Shown: positions 37,883 through 49,159 of the stretch, piece after piece
Position numbering within the stretch: the first letter of the stretch is position 1
How the letters are laid out: each line of letters begins with the position of its first letter
NCBI RefSeq assembly: GCF_030687535.1
Contig: NZ_CP117437.1
Span: forward strand, 1,137,501-1,201,500
Direction of reading: 5' to 3'
Length of the DNA: 64,000 nucleotides
From: Pseudomonas sp. FP2335
GTDB taxonomy: Bacteria > Pseudomonadota > Gammaproteobacteria > Pseudomonadales > Pseudomonadaceae
Made by a program: the position numbers and the translations under genes
The notes under the pieces: model-generated
Database searches by the model: none
What the model was told of the DNA's origin: nothing
Seen by the model: only the letters and a program-made list of their open reading frames with translations

Positions 37883-38524
37883 TTACAGGTACACCACTTC
37901 CAGCGTCGCGGAGCCGTCCATGGGGGTCTCGACGCTCAGGTCCAGGTTCTGCTTGGCATTGATCACGGCTTCCAGGGTCAAGGTACTCGTCAGGTTCCGG
38001 ATGGCCGAAGGCCCGGCGGTGCTGCCCGCCACATCGGTAAAGCCCAGCAAGCTGCGTGAGCCGATGTCGATGGGGTTGGTATTGGACGTACGCCAGGCCA
38101 CGCCGCCGGTGGTCGATTCTGTGCCATAGGCCACTGCCAAGTCATCGGCCACGGTTTGCTTGGGGTCGAATTTGACCGAGTACACGCCAATCTTGTTGCC
38201 CGCGCTGTCCAGGCCCAAGCCGTAGTAGATCTCGCTGTTGACGTGGGCCGTGCCGTCTCGGTTGTCGGCCATGCGCAGCGCATAGCGGCCGGGGGCATTG
38301 CAACTGACGGTCAGGGTCAAGGACTTGAGTGGCAGCCGGGTACCCGTGGCCTGGTTGAGGTCCTGCTGGGAAATCTTGCCGAAGTCGATCAAGCCACCGC
38401 CGGACAGCACCGGGGTGCAGGCCATGGGCGTGATCAGGCCGCCGACGGTCAGTTCGGCGGTGGAGCCGGCATGGGCGGGTATGACATAGGCAAGCCCGGC
38501 CACTGCAATCAGCAACATTTTCAT
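37883..38524 (-). CDS. DUF1120 pilin-like subunit (last gene of operon)
   Basis: 213 residues with signal peptide ending IPAHA. The mature start STAELTVGGLITPMAC has the donor-strand pattern of alternating hydrophobics around a Gly; Cys pair in PMAC and TVSC; YYGLGLDSAG core; C-terminal strand DGSATLEVVYL with penultimate Tyr. This is the subunit layout of chaperone-usher pilins. AGGAG precedes the ATG, 10 nt after the upstream subunit gene. It most resembles the pilin half of the 39162-40289 protein (both carry GLGLD and a GFxxxxGSTxGPSAI segment). Confidence 0.82.
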   Translation of the reverse strand: MKMLLIAVAGLAYVIPAHAGSTAELTVGGLITPMACTPVLSGGGLIDFGKISQQDLNQATGTRLPLKSLTLTVSCNAPGRYALRMADNRDGTAHVNSEIYYGLGLDSAGNKIGVYSVKFDPKQTVADDLAVAYGTESTTGGVAWRTSNTNPIDIGSRSLLGFTDVAGSTAGPSAIRNLTSTLTLEAVINAKQNLDLSVETPMDGSATLEVVYL

Positions 38525-38534
38525 GGTTCAACTC

Positions 38535-39152
38535 CTATAGGTACTTCATGGTCAGGGTCATGGACCCGTCGATGGGAATCTCCTCGGCCAGGGGCAGCGT
38601 ATTGGCCGGCGCGATGCTGGGCTCGATGTACAGGAATGCTGTCAGTAGCTTTATCGGTGCAGGCACCGGCACCGTCGGGGTCGGCGTGAATGCGGTCAGA
38701 AAGTGCGGTGACAGCAACTTCGCGGGTGCCCACGAAGTGGGGCCACTGGAGCCGATGGGGTGCATCTGGACGCCGTCGGCCACCACTGAGTAGACGCTCA
38801 ATGTCATGGAGCCCAACCGGGTGACGCCATTGATCAACCCCAGGCCGAACTTGAAACTCTGATCGCCGGCATAACTGGAACCCAGACGATTGTCCCGGGG
38901 TTCCAGGGCCAATAGGGTGGAGGCTTCGCAGTTGATCGTCAGTTGCAGGCTGTGGGGCGGTAGAACGGTAGGTGCGTCGAGCGTTAGCTCGCGGGCGGCG
39001 ATTTTGCCCAGGTCGTACAGGCCGCCATTGGGCAGGCTCGGTTCACAGGCACTGGGGGTGACCAGGCCGGTGACATTGAGGTCAATACCGGAAGCGGCCT
39101 GGGCTGTGTTGACCCAGGTAAAGACAGCGAGGGCGATCAGCAAGGGTTTCAT
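38535..39152 (-). CDS. DUF1120 pilin-like subunit
   Basis: 205 residues; signal peptide ends NTAQA. Mature start SGIDLNVTGLVTPSAC, Cys partner in LTINCEAST, FKFGLGLINGVTRLG core, and C-terminus DGSMTLTMKYL with penultimate Tyr. AGGA precedes the ATG. It lies between the two-domain subunit gene and the terminal subunit gene, with 9-10 nt gaps on both sides. Its middle region (FTPTPTVPVPAPIKLLTAFL) is Pro-rich and unlike its paralogs. Role within a fibre inferred. Confidence 0.82.
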   Translation of the reverse strand: MKPLLIALAVFTWVNTAQAASGIDLNVTGLVTPSACEPSLPNGGLYDLGKIAARELTLDAPTVLPPHSLQLTINCEASTLLALEPRDNRLGSSYAGDQSFKFGLGLINGVTRLGSMTLSVYSVVADGVQMHPIGSSGPTSWAPAKLLSPHFLTAFTPTPTVPVPAPIKLLTAFLYIEPSIAPANTLPLAEEIPIDGSMTLTMKYL

Positions 39153-39161
39153 GTCGCGTTC

Positions 39162-40289
39162 CTATAGATAGATGATTTCGAGGGTGCCTGAGCCGTCCAG
39201 CCGGACCTCATTGCCCAGGTCCAGCGAGCCCAGGGGGGCAATCACGGCCTCCAGGCTCAGCGTCGCATTGAGGTTCTGAATCGCGCTGGGGCCGCTGGTA
39301 CTGCCGGAGGTGGCGCTGAAGCCTAGGTAGCGATTGGCACCGACTGCCGCGATGCGCGCGCTGGCACTGCTCCAGGGCAGGCCACCGCTGGCGGAATCGG
39401 TGGAAAAAACCGGGCCTAAGCTGTCGGCCGTGATCCGGCTCGGATCGAACAGCAGCCGGTAACGCCCGATTTTCTGCTGCCGGGCGTCCAGGCCCAGCCC
39501 GTAGGCGCTTTCATCGGCGATGCCGGTGGCGGAGCCCTGGCGGTTGTCCTGCATGCGTACGGCGAATGCCGTGGGCCCATCGCAGATGACACTGAGCGAC
39601 AGCGCCCTTGGCGCCAGGACGGTGTCTTTGTCCATGCTCAGGTCGCTGACCGACAGCTTGCCCAGTTCCACATGGCCGCCATTGGACAAGGTGGGGGTAC
39701 AAGCCGCAGGTGCGAAGTGTGCCAATAGCCGCAGCTCCCGTGAACGCCCGGCGGCGAGGGCCTCGAACAGCCCGGCGGTGTCCCAGGTCACGGCGTCGCG
39801 CACCTGTGTGGCCGCCTCGCTGGCCCAGGCGCTGGCGTCGATCTGCAACGACAGGTTGCGCCCTGTTACCACGACGCCACCCCGCATCGGCACGACGCCA
39901 TGGTCCGGCGGCCAAGGCAGTTGCGCGCCGGTCGTGGAGGGCGCCTGGCCCGGGCCCGCAATCTGGCCAAGCTCCACCGCCTGACCATCCAGCACCGCAT
40001 CGCTGACCCGCAAACCGTAAGTGCCGCGCTCGGTAAAGCGGAACCGTTCGGGCCCGGCGCCGGGCCCTCGATAGAACAGGCTCAGATCGCTGGGGTGCGG
40101 GCAGTTCAGCGTGAGGCTGATCTGCCGCTCCCCCAGCCATCGCTCCGCCGCCGGGGTCACGGCCGTGGCGCGGTTCATCAGGCCGAAGTCCAGCTCTGCC
40201 TGGCTGAGGTTGAGTTGGCATTCGTCCGCCCCCCAGGCGCCGGCACTCGTCAACAGAGCCAGGGGATACAGCAGGTGTTTCAGGCCCAT
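39162..40289 (-). CDS. Two-domain DUF1120 protein, candidate tip adhesin
   Basis: 375 residues from ATG 40289 (AGGAG 7 nt upstream). Signal peptide ends GAWGA. Residues about 20-195 form an extra N-terminal domain (ECQLNLSQAELDFGLMNRA, two Cys, beta-rich) with no paralog here; residues about 200-375 are a DUF1120 pilin domain (LRLLAHFAPAACTPTLSNGG, Cys in SVICDG, end DGSGTLEIIYL with penultimate Tyr). A binding domain fused to a pilin domain, encoded just after the usher, is how tip adhesins such as FimH are arranged. Adhesin function is inferred. Confidence 0.75.
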   Translation of the reverse strand: MGLKHLLYPLALLTSAGAWGADECQLNLSQAELDFGLMNRATAVTPAAERWLGERQISLTLNCPHPSDLSLFYRGPGAGPERFRFTERGTYGLRVSDAVLDGQAVELGQIAGPGQAPSTTGAQLPWPPDHGVVPMRGGVVVTGRNLSLQIDASAWASEAATQVRDAVTWDTAGLFEALAAGRSRELRLLAHFAPAACTPTLSNGGHVELGKLSVSDLSMDKDTVLAPRALSLSVICDGPTAFAVRMQDNRQGSATGIADESAYGLGLDARQQKIGRYRLLFDPSRITADSLGPVFSTDSASGGLPWSSASARIAAVGANRYLGFSATSGSTSGPSAIQNLNATLSLEAVIAPLGSLDLGNEVRLDGSGTLEIIYL

Positions 40290-40300
40290 GACAGGACTCC

Positions 40301-42751
40301 TCATGACGGGCGGCACCGGGCCGGTGCGGTTTCGAAATACACCTCGGGGTCGGCGTCTTCCGGCAGTTGGAACTCCAGGCGGCAGCGGGGCTGTCCCGGC
40401 GGCTTGACCCAGAGCGGGCGCGGGTCCAGCACATCGGGCAGGAACACTTGGCTGCCTTCCTGCACCAGGGTGACGAACTCACCCTCGGCGGTACTGACGG
40501 TGGCGCCCCGTGGCAGCGGCTGGCCGCTGTCGGTGGTGACGTTGAGCAGTGCGCGGCGCGTGAGGGCCACACCAAATTGCACCTTGTCCACCGCTCCGCG
40601 GCCGGCGGAGATCATCGCCAGACCGTTGTGGATATCGGCGTTGCGCGGCAGCGAGCGGGTCTGCACTTCCACCGGACTGCGGCCATAGGCGTTGAGCTGC
40701 GGCACCACGGCCTGGCCTTGCCAATCGGTCCAGACTGGGCCACTAGGGGTGCTGACCTTGACCCCGGCCATCTCGCCCACCGACATCACGGCGAAGGTCT
40801 CGCGCACCGGGTAGGGCGAGAAGGTCACGCCGTCGCCATGCACCACCACGCCGCCACGGGCGCCGCCTTGGTAGCTGGAGCGCTCGTTGTCGGAGCGGGT
40901 GTAGTTGAAGTCCAACTGGCTGTACCACGGCAAGGCCGATACGCCGAGCGACGACTCCACTTCGCGGTCGCGACTGTCGCGTTCCACCCCCACCCGGTAG
41001 CTGAGTTGGTCGTTGAGTTGTTCGCTTACCCCGGCGCCCAGTCGATGTTCACCGCCAGTGTGGCGAGCCCAGGCACGTCCTCGACGGCTTTCGCCCAGCG
41101 GCACACTCAGGTTCAGGTAGACGCTGTTGTCGTTCTGCTGGCGCCCCCCCACTTGCCACTCAGCGCTCGCCGACACGGACACCCGGCCAAAACTGCGGCC
41201 CCAGGAGGCGAGCGCACGGCTGCTGCTCTCACCGTTGTACGACGCCGTGCGCGAGACGCCGGCACTGAACGCCCCCAGTGCTGGATGCGCCCAGGACGCG
41301 GTGAAACTTTGCTGGTCGCGGTAACGCGAACGCTGCTGGTCGCGGCTGTTGCCGACGTAGGTGGAGTCTTCCAGGTCGCGATAGCCCTGGGAGCGCCACG
41401 AGCCGCTGGTACTCAGCGACCAACTGTCGTTCAGGCGCTGAGACCAGGAAAGGTCGGTCTGTACCCCGCGATCACGCCCCTCACGGCTGGCCTCGGCGGC
41501 CTGGGTGGTGAACTGCAACTGGCTGTCCTGCCAGGGTAGCCAACCCAGGTTCACGCCAACGGCACGATACGCATCGGCCATCAGCCCCCCACCGCCCACG
41601 CTGACTTGCGGGTGCACCGTGCCGCTCCAGCCGGCACTGACCACCCAGGGCTCCTTGCCGTCGCTGTCGCCGATCTGGCGCACGCGGCCGGCGGCCACCG
41701 AATAGCCTGGTGCCGGCAAGCCCAGGCCGAGCATGCCAGCGGGCACGGTGAAGCGGCGCTCCTCGCCGGTGGTTTCCTTGACCGTGACTTCCACGTCGGC
41801 GCGGCTGTTCAAGCGTCGCACGTCGGTCAGGGCGAATGGGCCGGCGGGTACCACGGTTGAGTGGATCAGTGCGCCGTTCTGGCGTACCTCCACCTGGGCC
41901 GGGCTGTTGGCGATACCGGTAATGGTTGCGCCTTGGTTCTGGTCCTGCAGCGCCGTTTCGGTCAGTACCTGGGCACCGGTGATCTGTGTGCCGGCCAGTA
42001 CCGGGTTGTAGAGGCTGATCTGACCCGCTTGCAACACCGTCTGCTGCTCGGCGAAGGTGCGTTGGGCGTAGGCGTCCAGGTGCGTGGTGCGCGAGCGGCT
42101 GTCTTGCCAGGTTTTTACCTGGCGGCTGCGTACGATCCAATCACCGGCGTTGAAACCCACCTCGGTATTGGCCGAGCCGAAGCGGCTGGTGTCGGCGCCG
42201 AACTCGTTGTACAGCCCCGTCAGGTCGTAGTTGAGCAGGCCAGCGAAGCCGCCGGTCTGGTAGCCGGAGATGTCCTGTTGCGCAGGGCGCACGGCGTCGG
42301 TCGGTACCACCAAAGCCAGGCTCAGGCTGGCGGGGTCTTGCTCGATCACGGTCTGCGGGAAGCGTTCGGTAAAGCGATGGCAGGTCGGGGCGCCGTCGTC
42401 ATCGGGCACGATCAGGTTTGCGGCATCCAGCAGTGTGCGGTTGAAACACAAGCCACCCTGTGGCTCGAAGGTCACATCCACCCGGCCACGGCGCTGGCCG
42501 TTGACGTTCAGGTTGACGGCGTGCCGGCCTGCGGCAAAGCGCGGTGCCTCGAGCAACAGGTTGGCCAGTTCCGGGTCGATGCCGCGTCTCGACAGGGTTT
42601 GGGGGTCGAAGGAGCCGGCGATCAGGTCGTCATGGGCCAGTGCCTCTCCCATGGGCAGTGCACTGCCCAACGCCAGGGCCAGCCCCGCCAGAATATAAGG
42701 TGCCGGGCGTGGTGAAACGCCAGGCACGGCGCCGCCGTCGCGGTCAGTCAT
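40301..42751 (-). CDS. Outer-membrane usher, PapC/FimD family
   Basis: 816 residues from ATG 42751; a GTG at 42796 is possible and neither start has a good Shine-Dalgarno sequence. The N-terminal periplasmic domain follows the signal peptide (SFDPQTLSRRGIDPELANLL, LNVNGQRRGRVDV); then a large beta barrel interrupted by a plug domain, with repeated aromatic strands (SWSLSTSGSWRSQGY), and C-terminal Ig-like domains (ALTRRALLNVTTDSGQPLPR). It secretes and assembles subunits delivered by the chaperone encoded upstream. The stop is 11 nt before the two-domain subunit. Confidence 0.93.
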   Translation of the reverse strand: MTDRDGGAVPGVSPRPAPYILAGLALALGSALPMGEALAHDDLIAGSFDPQTLSRRGIDPELANLLLEAPRFAAGRHAVNLNVNGQRRGRVDVTFEPQGGLCFNRTLLDAANLIVPDDDGAPTCHRFTERFPQTVIEQDPASLSLALVVPTDAVRPAQQDISGYQTGGFAGLLNYDLTGLYNEFGADTSRFGSANTEVGFNAGDWIVRSRQVKTWQDSRSRTTHLDAYAQRTFAEQQTVLQAGQISLYNPVLAGTQITGAQVLTETALQDQNQGATITGIANSPAQVEVRQNGALIHSTVVPAGPFALTDVRRLNSRADVEVTVKETTGEERRFTVPAGMLGLGLPAPGYSVAAGRVRQIGDSDGKEPWVVSAGWSGTVHPQVSVGGGGLMADAYRAVGVNLGWLPWQDSQLQFTTQAAEASREGRDRGVQTDLSWSQRLNDSWSLSTSGSWRSQGYRDLEDSTYVGNSRDQQRSRYRDQQSFTASWAHPALGAFSAGVSRTASYNGESSSRALASWGRSFGRVSVSASAEWQVGGRQQNDNSVYLNLSVPLGESRRGRAWARHTGGEHRLGAGVSEQLNDQLSYRVGVERDSRDREVESSLGVSALPWYSQLDFNYTRSDNERSSYQGGARGGVVVHGDGVTFSPYPVRETFAVMSVGEMAGVKVSTPSGPVWTDWQGQAVVPQLNAYGRSPVEVQTRSLPRNADIHNGLAMISAGRGAVDKVQFGVALTRRALLNVTTDSGQPLPRGATVSTAEGEFVTLVQEGSQVFLPDVLDPRPLWVKPPGQPRCRLEFQLPEDADPEVYFETAPARCRPS

Positions 42752-42843
42752 TGCTGTGCTCACAAGGTCGTACTCAACAGTTGGCGGCCCGCTCACTCTG
42801 TGGTGAGTCAGGCCTGATGGTGGCGTTGGCAGGCCACTCTTTT

Positions 42844-43581
42844 TTATAGGGTGATCGGTGCTTCGTAGGGCGCCACGGCAAAGCCGTAGACCGTGGCCGG
42901 CTGCAACTGCACACGGTTCGCACCGCTGCCGCTGGCCGTCACCTTCAGGGTTTCACCCGGCAGCACGTACGTGCGCGGCAACAACGCCGAACCGCCACCG
43001 GGCAACAGCTTCAATTCCTGGGCCAGGCGTACCACGTAGGGCGTCGGGTTGCTGACGCTCAGTTGGTCGCTGCTCAAGCGCCATTCCAAGCCGGTCCAGG
43101 GTGTGCGGTTGGGCGCCAGGCCCTTGGGATGCAGAATCACGGGTAGGTTCTGGCGCACGGTGACGCCCACTCGCGCATGCCCGGCCTGCGCGGCGGAACG
43201 CCCCTGGGGCATGCCTTCGAAAATCACCCGCTTCAAGCGCTGGGTCGTCAGCGGCTCGGCTGATTGCAGGATGAACCGGATCAGTTGGCTCTTGGCCGGC
43301 TCGACCCTTGCCAGGGGGGGCGTGACGAACAGCAGCGAAGCCTTGTCCTCGGGGATGTCTTCCAGGGTCACGTGCAACAGGGCCAGTTTGTCGTCGGTGT
43401 TGGTGACCGTCACCGAGGCTTCGCCATCGGCCTCGTTGACGATCACCACCGAGGTGTCGGGCACCATGCCATCGGCCAGTACCAGTGCAGGCGCGCCGCA
43501 TGCCAGGGCGAGTGAGGCGAGGTAAATGCCGGCGTAGCGCAGGTACGTGAACAGTCGGGTAAAAAAGGGTAGGGGATTCAT
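42844..43581 (-). CDS. Periplasmic pilus chaperone, PapD-like, non-classical cleft
   Basis: 245 residues with a long signal region to about 36 (ALVLADG). Two Ig-like domains: domain 1 with SVTVTNTDDKLALLHV and LLFVTPPLARVEPAKSQLIRF; domain 2 with SVSNPTPYVVRLAQ. The classical subunit-anchoring Arg8 (ATRVIYP in FimC) aligns with Ser in DTSVVIV, and the Lys112 region (RIKLYYRP) reads RQNLPVILHP, so the Arg-Lys pair is not visible. It starts 2 nt after the preceding subunit stop and should fold the DUF1120 subunits. Confidence 0.88.
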   Translation of the reverse strand: MNPLPFFTRLFTYLRYAGIYLASLALACGAPALVLADGMVPDTSVVIVNEADGEASVTVTNTDDKLALLHVTLEDIPEDKASLLFVTPPLARVEPAKSQLIRFILQSAEPLTTQRLKRVIFEGMPQGRSAAQAGHARVGVTVRQNLPVILHPKGLAPNRTPWTGLEWRLSSDQLSVSNPTPYVVRLAQELKLLPGGGSALLPRTYVLPGETLKVTASGSGANRVQLQPATVYGFAVAPYEAPITL

Positions 43582-43583
43582 GG

Positions 43584-44213
43584 CTACAGATACCTCAGGT
43601 CAAGCACGATGGACCCGTCCAGGGGCACCTCCTGCTTGAGGGTCAAATAGGCGGCGGCGTTGATGGACGTGTTGACTTGCAATGTGGCCGTCAGCAGCCG
43701 GTGCGGCTCCGGCACCAGCGTGCCGGGATGGGCAAAGCCCATGTAGTTGTTCGGGTAGGCGTTGGATTCCGGAAACCAGGTCAGGCCCTGGTTGCTGGAC
43801 GCCAGCACCAGCACGCGCTCGCCATCGCCCATCACCTCGCGAAACACCAGGGACACAGTGCCCAGTCGTTCGGTCGGGGCGTGGATGTTGGTGCCTAGGC
43901 CGTAGTAGAAACCTGGGCCCAGGGATGAATCGGCGCGGTTGTCCATGCCCACCAACACGAACAGCACCGGTTCGTTGCAACTGACCGCCAGTTCCAGGAC
44001 CTGGGTCGGCAGGGCGCTGTACTCGTATTGGTTGAGGCTGCGTGCCGGTACCCTTCCATGGTCGACAATGCCGTTGGCCGATAATGTGGGGGCGCAGGCA
44101 CTGGGCGTGATCAAGCCCGTGACGTTCAGTTCGGTACTGGACGCTGCCAGCACCGACGAGCCGACGCTGAGCAGATAAAACAGGGCAAGAAGGCGTGAAG
44201 AAACGTGCTTCAT
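43584..44213 (-). CDS. DUF1120 pilin-like subunit (fourth in operon)
   Basis: 209 residues; signal peptide ends SSVLA. Mature start ASSTELNVTGLITPSAC; second Cys in LAVSCNEPV; FYYGLGTNIH core; C-terminus DGSIVLDLRYL with penultimate Tyr. Stop lies 2 nt before the chaperone ATG, so it is tightly coupled to it. The Shine-Dalgarno sequence is weak. Confidence 0.83.
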   Translation of the reverse strand: MKHVSSRLLALFYLLSVGSSVLAASSTELNVTGLITPSACAPTLSANGIVDHGRVPARSLNQYEYSALPTQVLELAVSCNEPVLFVLVGMDNRADSSLGPGFYYGLGTNIHAPTERLGTVSLVFREVMGDGERVLVLASSNQGLTWFPESNAYPNNYMGFAHPGTLVPEPHRLLTATLQVNTSINAAAYLTLKQEVPLDGSIVLDLRYL

Positions 44214-44294
44214 GGAGGAGGTTCACCGGTTGCCTGGTTCAGGGGGCAAGGCGCGACGACGACAGGAGGGGGCTGTCGTCGCGCGCTTCAGGGG

Positions 44295-44918
44295 TTACAG
44301 GTAGCGCACGGTGACGGTCACCGAGCCGTCGATGGCGGCTTCGTTGGTCAGGGTCAAGCCACTGGCCGGAGCGATCTTGGGGCCGACACGCATTTCCGAG
44401 GTCAGCACCTGGACCGGGATCGGTGCATCGGCGCTGGTGTTGGCGACCGAGATCAGGTTCTCGGGCATCAGGTAGCGCTCAGTGAACCAGGTGACACCGC
44501 CGTCCTCGGAACCAATGGCTTTGACTGCAACGCCATCAGCTACAGGCGAAAGCAGTCGCAGGGTCATGGCGCCGAGTTTTTCGGTGTCGTTGATCAAACC
44601 CAGGCCGAATTCCATCATGTCGTTGCCGTGGTTCGACCCGGCGCGGTTGTCGTCGGCGTCGAGGGCCATCAACGTCGCCGCGTCACAGGTGACGGTGAGC
44701 TGCAGGGATTGTTCGGCAAGTGGGGTCATCTGATCGATGTTCAGGTCCTTGGCCGAGATCTTGCCGTAGTCCACGGTCCCGCCGTTGGACAGTGCCGGCG
44801 TGCAGGCGCTTGGGGTGATCAGGCCCTTGACCGTCAGGTCGACACTGGACGCAGCAAACGCAGTGGCGCTACTGGCGGCCAGCAGGGCGACGGCGACGGA
44901 TTTGAGTACGGTGTTCAT
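44295..44918 (-). CDS. DUF1120 pilin-like subunit (third in operon)
   Basis: 207 residues; signal peptide ends ATAFA. Mature start ASSVDLTVKGLITPSAC, then SNGGTVDYGKI; second Cys in LTVTCDAAT; FGLGLINDTEKLG; C-terminus DGSVTVTVRYL. GGAG 7 nt upstream of the ATG. An 81-nt gap follows before the next gene, the longest between subunits here, and could hold a processing site. It is closest in length and motifs to the general family pattern. Confidence 0.85.
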   Translation of the reverse strand: MNTVLKSVAVALLAASSATAFAASSVDLTVKGLITPSACTPALSNGGTVDYGKISAKDLNIDQMTPLAEQSLQLTVTCDAATLMALDADDNRAGSNHGNDMMEFGLGLINDTEKLGAMTLRLLSPVADGVAVKAIGSEDGGVTWFTERYLMPENLISVANTSADAPIPVQVLTSEMRVGPKIAPASGLTLTNEAAIDGSVTVTVRYL

Positions 44919-44951
44919 GGTGAGGCTCCAGGTTGAGATGAAAAGAAGGCG

Positions 44952-45581
44952 TTACCAGTACTTGAGTTGCAGCGTGGCCTGACCATCGATGGGCACTTCG
45001 TCGAGCAGGGTCAGGTCGCTGGCGGGCACGATCACGGTGAATGCCCGCAAACGTGCGTTGAGGGTTTGCAGGGCCATCGGGGTGTAAGGGCCTGCAGGCG
45101 GGGCGAACGAGGTCAGGGCCGCATGCCCCAGGTACGAGGACGGACGCCAACTGGCGCCGTTGTCGCGGGACAGGATGGTTTGCACCGGCACGCTATCGGC
45201 CACCGGGTCGAACACGCCAAACGCCACGCTGCCGAGTTTCTGGTCGTCGTTGATGATGCCCAGCCCATGGTGTGCCGGGTTGATCGCCGAGCTGCCGGCG
45301 CGGTTGTCGACGGTGGTCAGGGTGAAAAACGTCGCCCCCTCACACTGCACCTGTAGCTGCATTTCCCCGGCTTGCAGGCTGGTCGGGAAGTCCGGGTGCA
45401 GATCCTTGGCCGTCAGCTTGCCGTGGTCGATCACGCCACCGCCGGACAGCACAGGCGTGCACGACGCCGGGGTGATGATCCCGGTGACGCTCAAGTCCTG
45501 GCTGCTGGCGGCAAACACGCCGGGTGAGCAGGCCGCCAGCAGAATGGCGAAGGCGACCGAGGGGGTTCTTTCCATGGGCAC
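44952..45581 (-). CDS. DUF1120 pilin-like subunit (second in operon)
   Basis: 209 residues; signal peptide ends PGVFA. Mature start ASSQDLSVTGIITPASC; second Cys in LQVQCEGAT; HHGLGIINDDQKLG; C-terminus DGQATLQLKYW, the only paralog ending in Trp rather than Leu but keeping the penultimate Tyr. AAGGA precedes the ATG. The gap to the next gene is 33 nt. Confidence 0.85.
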   Translation of the reverse strand: MPMERTPSVAFAILLAACSPGVFAASSQDLSVTGIITPASCTPVLSGGGVIDHGKLTAKDLHPDFPTSLQAGEMQLQVQCEGATFFTLTTVDNRAGSSAINPAHHGLGIINDDQKLGSVAFGVFDPVADSVPVQTILSRDNGASWRPSSYLGHAALTSFAPPAGPYTPMALQTLNARLRAFTVIVPASDLTLLDEVPIDGQATLQLKYW

Positions 45582-45612
45582 AAGTCCTTGTGAGTGGGCG
45601 GTTGGGGGAGAG

Positions 45613-46254
45613 TCAGAGGTACAACAGGTCCAGTGAAGCGCTGCCGTCCAGGGGCACTTCTTCCCTTAAGGGCAGATCTTTGCTGGGCGCGACGAAGGTG
45701 ATGATCTGCAGGTCGGCCGTGACTGCGCGCAGCGCTTTGGGAAAGTAAGGGCCACCGACACCTGGGGTATCACTGAATGAGTTCCAGTAGGTGTGCCTCA
45801 TCATGCCCCCCGCGAATTTCGACCAGCTCTGGCCTTGATCGAAGGAGTGGATCGGGAACACGTCGGAGTCCGCGACAGGGTTGAGCAAGTCAAGGGAGTA
45901 GCTGCCTAACTTCTGGGTACCGTTGACGTAGCCCAGGCCGTAGTACCACGTGAGGTTAGGGAAGAGTGACGAGCCAAAACGGTTGTCCTTGGCGTTCAGG
46001 GCAAACAGAGTCGGGGCCTCACAGGCGATGCTCAGTTGAAGTGTGGCGGGGGCGAACTCGGTAGGGGTGTCGACCGACAGGTCCTTGGCGGGAATCTTCC
46101 CGTAGTCCACGGTGCCCCCTTGGGTCAAGTTGGGTACGCAGGCACTTGGCGTGATACTTCCCTTGACGGTCAGATCCACGTTGCTGGCGGCCAGTACGCA
46201 AGACGTACCGCCCAGCAGGACGGCAGCCACCAGCGTGGCGAGTGAAGCTTTCAT
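45613..46254 (-). CDS. DUF1120 pilin-like subunit (first in operon)
   Basis: 213 residues; signal peptide ends SCVLA. Mature start ASNVDLTVKGSITPSAC, TQGGTVDYGKI; second Cys in LSIACEAPT; WYYGLGYVNGTQKLG; C-terminus DGSASLDLLYL with penultimate Tyr. AGGAG precedes the ATG by 9 nt. As the promoter-proximal subunit gene it is the best candidate for the major fibre subunit, by analogy with fimA; this is inference. Confidence 0.85.
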   Translation of the reverse strand: MKASLATLVAAVLLGGTSCVLAASNVDLTVKGSITPSACVPNLTQGGTVDYGKIPAKDLSVDTPTEFAPATLQLSIACEAPTLFALNAKDNRFGSSLFPNLTWYYGLGYVNGTQKLGSYSLDLLNPVADSDVFPIHSFDQGQSWSKFAGGMMRHTYWNSFSDTPGVGGPYFPKALRAVTADLQIITFVAPSKDLPLREEVPLDGSASLDLLYL

Positions 46255-46663
46255 TGAATGGGGCTCCTAGGCGTTTTTAAGGGACAGGGAGCTCTAGGCG
46301 GTGCGCTGAGGGAGTGGCAGTGTGGTTGTTTTAAGCCCCCTCGCGCCTTCTTGAGCCCGAGCGACGGCGACTTTAGCGGTGGGGCCTGCGAGGGTGAATG
46401 CAACTATTACGATAGTGCTCGCCGGTGTTGCTGGCGCGTTGGAAGGCCTCTTTGTGTCTGTAGGAAATTCTGCGTTGTCGTAGTTGTTGTATCGCCATCA
46501 TCTACCCGCTCGGATACTTTCTGCGCACTTAAATAATGGCTATTCACTCATTTGAATGGCTGTAAAGGCCCTTGCGCGAAAAAATCGAGTGAGGTCGACC
46601 GACAGGTCGGCAATCGTCGTCCCTTGCTGGGCTGACGCGCTGATCGTTTTGCACGAGGTAGCT
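46255..46663. promoter_or_regulatory. Divergent control region of the pilus locus
   Basis: 409 nt between the first subunit gene (minus) and the receiver-HPt gene (plus). It is visibly richer in A/T and G/T runs than the flanking genes. TAGGAAATTCT (46461-46471) resembles the enterobacterial RcsAB box read in reverse (TAGGAATATTCTTA) but is one base short; since an RcsB-like regulator is encoded next door this is noted as a weak candidate. I cannot place promoters with confidence. Confidence 0.4.
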
Positions 46664-47488
46664 ATGCAGGATCCGACTGCTGGCTGTAGTCCGCAATGCT
46701 TTCCCCCGTCAGTGTCCCCGCCTGTCCATTGGCAGAAGGTGCGGGTGTTACTGGCAGACGATCACCGGGCCTATCGTTTGTTGATCGGCTCTTTCTTGAG
46801 CACGCTGGGTGTGGCGCACCAAACCGTCGGTGACGGGCAAGCGGCCCTTGATGCATTGGCCGCACGACCTTTTCATCTGCTGATCAGTGACTGCCGTATG
46901 CCTGGGATGGATGGCTATGCCCTGACACGGGAGCTGCGCCGTCGTGAGAACCGGGCTGGAACCGCACGTCTGCCAGTGATCGCCATGACGGCCGGCCTGG
47001 ATGCCGAGCAGATGCGCCGTTGCGTTGACTGCGGCATGGATGACTGGATGCTCAAACCCGTCACCCTTGAGCAATTGCGTGAAGCGCTGCTGTATTGGTT
47101 GCCCGACCCCGAGTCCCGTGTACACCCAACAAGGCATGCGGCCAATTTGGCACGTATGCATGGCTGGTTGCCGACGCGCGCCAGCCTTATTGCCAGTTTT
47201 GGCTTTTGGGAGGTGGTGGAGCCCTTGTTGTTCTGCTTGCTCCAGGAAGCGCACGATGACCTCACCGCGCTTGGGCAGGCGCGCGAAGCCTTGGACGTCA
47301 AGCTGACCGTCGAGCATCTGCACCGGCTGGTGGGCGGGGTAGCTTTTTTAGGCGATACCGGTCTGGAGCAACGTGCAATCCGCTTGATCGAGCGGGTCCG
47401 GCGCAGTGGTATCGCGGCCAATAAACCCCTGCTGGAACGGTTCGAGCAAGAAATCGAACGGTATCTGTCTTACTTGGCCAATCTGTAG
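46664..47488 (+). CDS. Free-standing receiver-HPt phosphorelay protein
   Basis: 274 residues from ATG 46664 (GAGG upstream). Residues about 24-145 are a receiver domain (VLLADDHRAY, phospho-acceptor Asp76 in ISDCRMPGMDG, Lys in MLKPVT). Residues about 165-270 are a histidine phosphotransfer domain with the active His220 in HRLVGGVAFLG. This is the C-terminal half of a BvgS/RcsC-type hybrid kinase without sensor or kinase domains. It is likely the relay between an unlinked kinase and the RcsB-like regulator encoded next. Confidence 0.88.
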   Translation: MQDPTAGCSPQCFPPSVSPPVHWQKVRVLLADDHRAYRLLIGSFLSTLGVAHQTVGDGQAALDALAARPFHLLISDCRMPGMDGYALTRELRRRENRAGTARLPVIAMTAGLDAEQMRRCVDCGMDDWMLKPVTLEQLREALLYWLPDPESRVHPTRHAANLARMHGWLPTRASLIASFGFWEVVEPLLFCLLQEAHDDLTALGQAREALDVKLTVEHLHRLVGGVAFLGDTGLEQRAIRLIERVRRSGIAANKPLLERFEQEIERYLSYLANL

Positions 47489-47674
47489 CGTCCTACATAA
47501 ATAAGAAGGAGGTTTCCTTTCTGTCGTGTAGGTTGTTTCTGTACTCCAATTCTTTTTATGCTGTAGGCATAAGTTTTCGCCGCATAAATAAAGGGCGCAC
47601 CGGAAATCGGATTGTTTCCAAGTGTTGTTGTAACAAGCGTGTCGAGGTATTTTGAAAAAACTCAAATTGCCATC

Positions 47675-48325
47675 ATGGATAGCACGATGTTTCGGATAAT
47701 GATTGCCGACGATCACCCCATTGTTCGTGTTGGTCAAAAAGTGGTCATCGAGGCCAGCGGCGTGTTCAAGGTCGTTGGGGAAGCCAATGGTCCCGACCAG
47801 CTCCTGGCATTGATGGCGACTACGCCATGCGATGTGATTGTGACCGACTTTGCCATGCCCGGTGACCAACAGGCAGACGGTTTTGGCTTGCTGGGACTGC
47901 TACAGCGCCAGCATCCGACGCTGCCGGTGATTCTGGTGACCATGTTCGCCAACGTGGCCACGCTCAGGGCTGCTTTCAGCCACGGAGCCCGCGCCATTGT
48001 GGCCAAGAGCGCCTCTGCGAGCGAGCTGCCGTTGGCCCTGAAGGCAGTGATCCATGGGCGCACATTTGTCAGCGAGTGCTTGCGTACCCAATTGGATATG
48101 GCGGGTGCCAGCAGTGATCAGCCGCCCCAGTTATCCGGCAAAGAGCGTGAGGTTGTACGCATGTTGGCCAGCGGCATGACCGTCAGCCAGATTGCCGCGC
48201 AAGTCAATCGCAGCATATCGACGATCAGCAAGCAGAAAAGTACGGCGATGTTACGCCTGTGCATTTCCACCGATGTGGATTTGTACGCCTATGCTCGAGA
48301 GAGTGGCATGGTGCCAAAGAGTTGA
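47675..48325 (+). CDS. RcsB-like LuxR-family response regulator
   Basis: 216 residues from ATG 47675; ATG 47687 is possible and neither has a clear Shine-Dalgarno sequence. Receiver domain with IADDHPIV and phospho-acceptor Asp58 (VIVTDFAMPGD), then LuxR HTH (LSGKEREVVRMLASGMTVSQ, NRSISTISKQKSTAML). The MPGD, TISxQKxxAM and ADDHPIV features are close to E. coli RcsB and to the RcsB/RocA regulators of P. aeruginosa cup fimbriae. It probably controls the divergent pilus operon. Confidence 0.88.
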   Translation: MDSTMFRIMIADDHPIVRVGQKVVIEASGVFKVVGEANGPDQLLALMATTPCDVIVTDFAMPGDQQADGFGLLGLLQRQHPTLPVILVTMFANVATLRAAFSHGARAIVAKSASASELPLALKAVIHGRTFVSECLRTQLDMAGASSDQPPQLSGKEREVVRMLASGMTVSQIAAQVNRSISTISKQKSTAMLRLCISTDVDLYAYARESGMVPKS

Positions 48326-48483
48326 TCGCGTTCTTGATCGCGCAAGTGTTAGTTGTATTCAGATAGGTTGGAAGTTTGCCGTATTCGTAATACTTGTATT
48401 TGGGAAGTTTGGTGTCGGGATTAGAGTGGGTGGGTGTTATTGCTATATAGGGCGATGACACTAATCCTCTAGTCCGACAAATT

Positions 48484-48500
48484 AACCTGTTATGCAGGTT
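48484..48500. promoter_or_regulatory. Inverted repeat before the eighth DUF1120 gene
   Basis: AACCTG (48484-48489) and CAGGTT (48495-48500) around TTATG, ending 20 nt before the start codon. A second, smaller dyad GTATTCGTAATAC lies near 48380. The 195-nt gap is AT-rich and must hold the promoter of the gene at 48521. Possible operator; no regulator can be assigned. Confidence 0.4.
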
Positions 48501-48520
48501 GTTAGTGTGAGCAACTTTAT

Positions 48521-49159
48521 ATGAAACAGTCTTTGAGTCTAATGGCTGCGGCCATCGTGCTGTCTGCCATTTCCCCTGTGTATGCCGCGTCTAGCGTGGA
48601 CTTGAGCGTCTCCGGGACCATCACTCCGTCGGCCTGTACCCCAACGCTCTCAGCGGGTGGGGTTGTGGACCATGGGAAAATATCGGTTCAGGACCTGGGT
48701 AACGCGCCGACCCCGCTCCCGGAAGCGGTCCTGCAATTGGCGATCAATTGTGAAGCCGCGACATTGGTTGCTATCAAGGGCACAGACAACCGTGCAGGCA
48801 CTTCCGCAGAATCTGACATCGGGCTGCCCAACTACGGCTTGGGACTGACCTCCGGCAACAAGAAAATCGGCTGGTACCGACTGAAAATGCTGAACGCACT
48901 CGCTGACGATATTCCCCGCGCAGTCATCGAGTCCATCGATGGTCAAACCTGGATGGATGCGCCAGACGGCACGATCTGGCAGCCGAGCTGGATGCGTTCC
49001 CTGACGGGCGCAGCGGGGGTTGGTGCGGTTCCACTGCCCATGCAAATGTTTACGACGGATGTGGTGGTTGCAACGACCATCACTGACAAGCGGGAACTTC
49101 CTGTCGCCGAAGAAATCCTGATCGATGGCAGCGCCACCTTGGACATCGTCTACCTGTAA
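48521..49159 (+). CDS. DUF1120 pilin-like subunit, separate transcript
   Basis: 212 residues; signal peptide ends PVYA. Mature start ASSVDLSVSGTITPSAC, SAGGVVDHGKISVQDL; second Cys in LAINCEAAT; NYGLGLTSGNKKIG; C-terminus DGSATLDIVYL with penultimate Tyr. No strong Shine-Dalgarno sequence. It lies beyond the two regulator genes on the opposite strand from the other seven subunits, with its own upstream region. It may be a differently regulated alternative subunit, or a remnant of duplication. Confidence 0.84.
   Translation: MKQSLSLMAAAIVLSAISPVYAASSVDLSVSGTITPSACTPTLSAGGVVDHGKISVQDLGNAPTPLPEAVLQLAINCEAATLVAIKGTDNRAGTSAESDIGLPNYGLGLTSGNKKIGWYRLKMLNALADDIPRAVIESIDGQTWMDAPDGTIWQPSWMRSLTGAAGVGAVPLPMQMFTTDVVVATTITDKRELPVAEEILIDGSATLDIVYL

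Follow-up and report, generated by a model that had tools for sequence, protein, structure and literature searches.

The window analysed here, a stretch of 64,000 nucleotides from Pseudomonas sp. FP2335 (contig NZ_CP117437.1, positions 1,137,501 to 1,201,500), carries at its positions 37883–49159 a chaperone-usher locus whose subunits match the DUF1120 family. We found that this locus is a beta-clade chaperone-usher fimbria, like Yhc of E. coli and Stj of Salmonella, and that it makes a probable thin surface fibre of a catalogued, little-studied type. The best overall explanation of the locus, in which we have high confidence, is a beta-clade fimbria with a two-domain tip protein (T2), a shaft of pilins, and a switch made of a receiver-HPt (REC-HPt) protein and an RcsB-like regulator.

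Assignment of the locus to the beta-fimbriae

The usher of the locus (40301..42796, minus strand) carries the Pfam domains PapC_N, Usher (1e-91) and PapC_C. In a tree of 52 ushers (built by a quick method, with no bootstrap), it falls into one clade with E. coli YhcD and 38 ushers of other DUF1120 loci (support by the Shimodaira–Hasegawa-like approximate likelihood ratio test (SH-aLRT) of 99). It does not group with the FimD/YbgQ-type ushers of classical gamma/pi/kappa fimbriae; FimD, SfmD, ElfC, YraJ, HtrE, YehB, YbgQ and three other ushers of the window's own genome form a second clade, also with an SH-aLRT of 99. The other DUF1120 loci belong to set A, which comprises 40 loci holding matches to PF06551 (DUF1120), the window's own apart. 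The YhcD clade takes in 38 of the 39 full ushers of this set; the exception, from locus L050, lies outside on a very long branch and, like EcpC, is placed unsurely.

NCBIfam models were compared with ten of the twelve locus proteins. The chaperone was identified as PRK09918, above the cut-off (254.6 bits versus 183), the usher matched PRK15304 under the cut-off (672 bits versus 723), and the six DUF1120 proteins scanned were relatives of PRK15302/15303, well under the cut-offs. We take PRK15301–15304 to be models of Stj; the locus resembles Stj of Salmonella Typhimurium in its usher, its subunits and the N-terminal domain of its tip protein, with all of these matches under the cut-offs.

The chaperone (42844..43581, minus strand; PapD_N, 2.3e-19, and PapD_C) does not have the subunit anchor of the classical gamma/pi/kappa systems. 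All seven classical E. coli chaperones have Arg at the R8 place and Lys at the K112 place; the window chaperone has Val45 and Pro147 there, with R118, R185 and Y205 present, and YhcA has the same anchor residues. Among 40 aligned beta chaperones (those of the window, YhcA and 38 loci; L050, which also has R118, R185 and Y205, EcpB and the fragments of locus L027 were left out), none has a basic residue at either place (Val or Ile, and Pro), and R118, R185 and Y205 are invariant. We relied on this alignment instead of a pattern scan of the R8 place in the 80 loci of set B, which returned V in 74, stray letters in 6 and R in none. Set B comes from a contig scan for which eight ushers were aligned, and holds the best 80 of 164 encoding stretches; because the ranking followed similarity to the window usher, it leans towards the window's own kind, and it shares some genomes with set A. 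Chaperones of beta-fimbriae without the classical anchors, and with non-classical ones, have already been published (PMC4654587), so we rejected the anchor as a novelty and regard our result as a confirmation on more sequences. The proposal made there for beta-fimbriae, that a domain-1 Arg and a domain-2 Arg/Tyr anchor the subunit C terminus, likens the window chaperone to the archaic Csu and alternative Ecp/CfaA chaperones; unlike in those systems, DUF1120 is the only Pfam family matched by the window subunits. Locus L050 combines a DUF1120 pilin and a very divergent usher with a chaperone of beta-type anchor (R118, R185, Y205, P147), and is possibly a deep relative of the beta clade.

The class itself is in print. 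The yhc locus is named as a beta chaperone-usher locus, the class being attributed to a 2007 review (PMC5216030), Stj is described as a beta-fimbria (PMC3373541, PMC9238391), and beta-fimbriae of Yersinia are reported (PMC3161016). The beta-fimbria locus of Cronobacter sakazakii (ESA_03512–03521) resembles ours, as judged by its description, in that seven subunit genes flank the chaperone and usher genes on both sides (PMC7545074). Stj has been imaged as a thin fibre, and is listed with slightly curved appendages and in the group of 2.3–3.5 nm diameter (PMC5583245). The original prediction of an uncharacterised surface fibre thus found no support: the locus is not of an uncharacterised kind, but belongs to the known beta-fimbriae.

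PF06551 matches eight proteins of the locus at E 7.9e-11 or better, each over the 21-bit cut-off. It is the sole Pfam family reported for these subunits at E 0.01 or better, and at that threshold none of the eight is a spore-coat-U-type subunit, as found in archaic sigma (Csu-type) systems. The AlphaFold2 model of one of them, up2 (44295..44918, minus strand; PF06551 7.9e-19), had a predicted local distance difference test score (pLDDT) of 88.4 and a predicted template modelling score (pTM) of 0.77, and in structure comparison the modelled subunit resembles type 1 and P pilins. DUF1120 is thereby predicted to be an incomplete immunoglobulin (Ig)-fold pilin of the chaperone-usher pathway, the fold that the original prediction required. 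The pilin sequence had no significant match among solved structures (E 0.16 for an unrelated chain and 0.28 for FimG), so that the evidence for the fold rests on models. The likeness to type 1 pilus subunits (FimA/FimF/FimG) comprises the incomplete Ig fold, an N-terminal extension with a conserved Gly and a C-terminal strand; usher clade and chaperone anchor differ.

DUF1120 genes were proposed to work with chaperones and ushers, and in 39 of the 40 loci of set A a DUF1120 gene indeed adjoins a chaperone gene and an usher frame of more than 600 amino acids (aa), rather than lying away from them; L027 has only fragments. A DUF1120 pilin profile matches E. coli GltF (7.0e-38) and YhcF (1.8e-36), neither of which was in its building set, and reaches FimG. 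One DUF1120 relative (P0108) additionally carries PF00419, which we take to be the Fimbrial family. The original prediction that DUF1120 is a separate pilin family of this pathway therefore stands as regards the pathway, and we rejected the view that the family is wholly separate. In the literature searched, DUF1120 and PF06551 are each mentioned in a single paper, in neither case one titled on fimbriae.

The probable tip protein and its relation to the pilins

T2 (39162..40316, minus strand) likely starts 27 bases downstream of the start of this frame, which gives a protein of 375 aa. It had been noted as a two-domain DUF1120 protein; Pfam DUF1120 matches its C-terminal domain only (residues 196–272). 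The N-terminal domain matches PRK15301 (E 2.9e-23; 82 bits versus a cut-off of 226) and is a distant DUF1120 relative. We distinguished single-domain tip homologues (T1; 21 sequences) from fused two-domain tips (T2; 17 sequences). The T1 profile matches all 17 T2 first domains, YhcE (9.7e-15) and 57 of 114 pilins; the pilin profile, at E <1e-3, finds 14 of the 21 T1 proteins, 10 of the 17 T2 first domains and YhcE. The alignment of T1 with the pilin profile begins at the first Cys and extends to the last strand (probability 98.7%). The median number of residues from the cleavage site to the first Cys is 2 in T1, 3 in the first domain of T2 and 16 in pilins, as counted with a crude cleavage finder (one T1 was unscored, outliers include L033, L035 and L047, and six pilins stand at 3 or fewer). 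Both T1, with E. coli YhcE among its members, and the T2 first domain are homologous to pilins but lack the N-terminal extension that provides a donor strand. The K-12 copy of yhcE is interrupted by IS5, and intact copies exist in other E. coli strains.

T2 could alternatively be an ordinary tip adhesin of the FimH/CupB6 type, with a self-contained lectin-like domain 1, a pilin as domain 2 and no donor strand in cis. We consider this doubtful, since domain 1 is homologous in sequence to the DUF1120 pilin as a whole, has the 39-residue Cys spacing of pilins in 15 of the 17 T2 proteins (the spacing in T1, scored by pattern, was noisy and was not used), and is also found by itself as T1/YhcE, the end of which coincides with that of a pilin. 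A lectin role may have evolved on this domain. The original prediction of one adhesin-like protein was right as to its size, but the extra domain, too, is homologous to pilins.

The tip gene follows the usher gene, and in 78 of the 80 loci of set B it is fused to a second pilin. The donor-strand glycine is present in 377 of 403 pilins and absent from all 78 fused copies (the second domain of T2), which makes it probable that the second pilin of the fused tip completes the first domain in cis. From the known mechanism of assembly, a subunit that receives a donor strand and gives none would have to stand at the distal end. On balance, though with reserve, we favour the following account. Loss of the N-terminal donor strand would have turned one pilin of the beta-fimbriae into a dedicated tip. 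In the P. fluorescens group, fusion of this tip with the pilin that follows it would have made the first joint, elsewhere formed by strand exchange at the usher, an intramolecular strand, after which the glycine would have been lost. The fused tip would start a modular fibre of a fixed core and lineage-specific pilins, 1 to 12 in all.

A tip of this kind departs from what has been printed on beta-fimbriae, which are said to lack a typical tip adhesin (PMC3161016, PMC3373541) and are described without a typical tip also in PMC5216030. These statements would suit a locus whose product is a surface layer that is not fimbrial, or a short fibrilla without a tip, an explanation we hold to be improbable: the basis of the statements is that no tip had been recognised, a tip-like subunit lacking the donor strand occurs in our locus, in Yhc and in 37 of the 39 full-usher loci of set A (it is missing in L050 and L053), and Stj gives visible appendages once induced (PMC5583245). 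Adhesin alleles were nevertheless counted for stj in the supplement of PMC3373541. YhcE is predicted to bind fimbrial chaperones, may act in adhesion and is called a membrane protein (PMC13246756); it is listed without predictable function in one of PMC3373541, PMC3161016 and PMC5216030, and the part of the yhcE literature that we covered contained no description of it as a tip. Since Yhc, an accepted member, also has a tip-like subunit, we take the mismatch to mean that the beta class has been incompletely described, and not that our locus is excluded from it. The tip architecture may be new, no description of it having been met in the literature covered. Compared through the models, Stj differs from it in that PRK15301 (189 positions) covers one domain, here fused to a second pilin, and in the seven single-domain pilins of the window locus. 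Yhc (gltF-yhcADEF) is like our locus in usher clade, pilin family and the tip homologue YhcE, but has two pilins and a single-domain tip.

In the assembly that we propose, DUF1120 subunits would be exported by Sec as incomplete Ig-fold pilins, to which the chaperone would lend its G1 strand while its non-classical Arg/Arg/Tyr site holds the subunit C terminus. Each subunit would then, at the usher, displace the chaperone strand in the preceding subunit with its own N-terminal extension (ASSVDLTVKGLITPSAC type), and this strand exchange would yield a thin heteropolymeric fibre. T2 would be exported first, as the tip, with no donor strand to give from its N-terminal domain; the segment acting as N-terminal extension of domain 2 would provide, in cis, the strand that domain 1 lacks. 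The remaining pilins would build the shaft from core subunits in conserved gene places and from exchangeable accessory ones. An unlinked kinase would feed the REC-HPt protein and the RcsB-like regulator, which as a pair would switch the operon, and the fibre might adhere to some surface.

Core and accessory pilins

All frames of the original prediction were recovered, nine on the minus strand (37883–46254) and three, divergent from them, on the plus strand (46556–49159), and their Pfam domains agree with the composition it gave for both groups. The nine genes are transcribed in the order up4-up3-up2-up1-chaperone-usher-T2-dn1-dn2; gaps of at most 81 bases, together with an overlap of 16 bases between the usher and tip genes, fit a single operon. 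It encodes six single-domain DUF1120 proteins and one of two domains, and the eighth DUF1120 gene (div; 48521..49159, plus strand; PF06551 9.5e-15) is divergent.

Pilin groups follow gene position in a tree of 131 pilin rows (a quick method, with 44 of 128 inner branches weak). The pilin adjoining the chaperone gene, up1 (43584..44213, minus strand; PF06551 7.9e-11), belongs to a clade of 11 rows (SH-aLRT 100), and the third pilin upstream of the chaperone gene, up3 (44952..45581, minus strand; PF06551 4.4e-15), to one of 14 rows (SH-aLRT 99). The last downstream pilin, dn2 (37883..38524, minus strand; PF06551 9.6e-17), shares a clade of 30 rows with domain 2 of T2 (SH-aLRT 99). We assigned the 409 pilin frames of set B to these groups by profile with a 20-bit margin, counting frames of at least 90 aa, so that gene remnants may be included. 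The up1 group is present in 53 of the 80 loci, up3 in 61, the last downstream group in 63 and the div group in 17; up1 adjoins the chaperone gene in 53, up3 stands third in 49 and the last downstream pilin is last in 55.

In comparison with the related locus L018, the most conserved subunit is dn2 (91% identity), followed by up1 (88%), the chaperone (87%) and the usher (86%), then T2 (76%), up2 (75%) and up3 (71%); the variable set consists of dn1 (38535..39152, minus strand; PF06551 5.3e-11), 60% identical to its tree sister, div (49%) and up4 (45613..46254, minus strand, first gene of the operon; PF06551 1.5e-15), at 39%. The L018 gene in the same position is not the nearest row to up4 in the pilin tree, and because the two are not sisters, replacement is as likely as fast change. 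The ratio of non-synonymous to synonymous divergence (dN/dS) against L018 is below 0.5 for 11 of 12 genes, with dS of div saturated. Alongside a conserved pilin core, these loci carry changing accessory pilins.

The small DUF1120 genes might instead be mostly redundant tandem duplicates, a reserve for antigenic or receptor variation of which one or two are built into the fibre. The range of pilin numbers and the strong divergence of up4, div and dn1 relative to the usher would agree with this explanation, but the core order is kept at all three positions counted above and the dN/dS values are low; we think it unlikely. The number of single-domain pilins per locus in set B runs from 1 to 12 (median 5), with seven or more in 18 of the 80 loci. 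The seven found here are therefore not extreme, and the subunit set is not unusually large, contrary to what had been supposed.

Regulatory genes and related loci

The divergent REC-HPt protein (46556..47488, plus strand; Response_reg 2.1e-23, Hpt 8.9e-7) keeps the acceptor Asp112 and an HPt-type histidine motif and has no kinase domain. Next to it lies an RcsB/LuxR-type response regulator (47612..48325, plus strand; Response_reg and GerE), the probable regulator of the operon. An RcsB-like gene is present in 72 of the 80 loci and a frame like REC-HPt also in 48, three of these frames being only 143 aa long. A search of the own genome identified no dedicated kinase partner: it gave generic receivers, the nearest of them in a 921-aa frame (33% identity). 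The domains suggest, as the likely relay, an unlinked kinase, the REC-HPt protein and then the RcsB-like regulator. In L029, L035 and L050, a frame of 917–1237 aa matching the REC-HPt protein stands beside the RcsB-like gene (1237 aa in L050). The REC-HPt protein is 53% identical to its L018 counterpart and the adjoining RcsB-like protein 76%, although both are regulators. Phase variation by inversion was rejected, as no inverted repeats of at least 12 bases were found at 46200–46650 or 48300–48560.

Of 115 relatives, counting the own genome, 28 hold PF06551, and these belong to a single genus among the 45 covered. Exactly pilin-chaperone-usher-T1 is the architecture of 18 of the 39 full-usher loci of set A, and 16 carry T2, an RcsB-like gene accompanying it in 14. 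The link between T2 and a large number of pilins does not hold in L019 (T2, one pilin), L020 (T1, several) and L029 (T1, two). Set B consists of 79 Pseudomonas loci and one from Herbaspirillum; 78 have T2 and two have T1. The Herbaspirillum locus (L140, strain SJZ106, of a genus we take to be betaproteobacterial) has a single-domain tip, two pilins, an RcsB-like gene and a 227-aa REC-type frame. In L032 and L139, unlike in the other loci, two pilins lie on the opposite strand right after the fused tip gene. L027 is a beta-fimbria locus in short frames, from an assembly (G051) listed with 9% contamination, which points to decay or an assembly error. Elsewhere in the own genome (a single contig of 6.06 Mb), a minimal second beta-fimbria cluster of pilin, chaperone, usher and single-domain tip (L034, G000:C1:5773000-5792000) contains a ninth DUF1120 gene, which lies beside a second usher.

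In a class-wide survey, DUF1120 was found in one of 369 genomes, the own one, and in none of 14 control genomes, though E. coli was among the controls and K-12 has an annotated DUF1120 gene, yhcF; yhcE-like DNA is present in 1133 of 5426 E. coli genomes. Since either the scan misses copies or the E. coli strain among the controls has no yhc, we make no claim on the spread of DUF1120 outside Pseudomonas.

Beta-fimbriae are a small and little-studied chaperone-usher clade, and naming their tip, including E. coli YhcE, gives this clade a testable order of assembly. The natural fusion of the tip pilin with the next pilin would lend itself readily to structural analysis. The P. fluorescens group, with one conserved core and changing accessory pilins, offers a series in which to ask what subunit variety does for a fibre.

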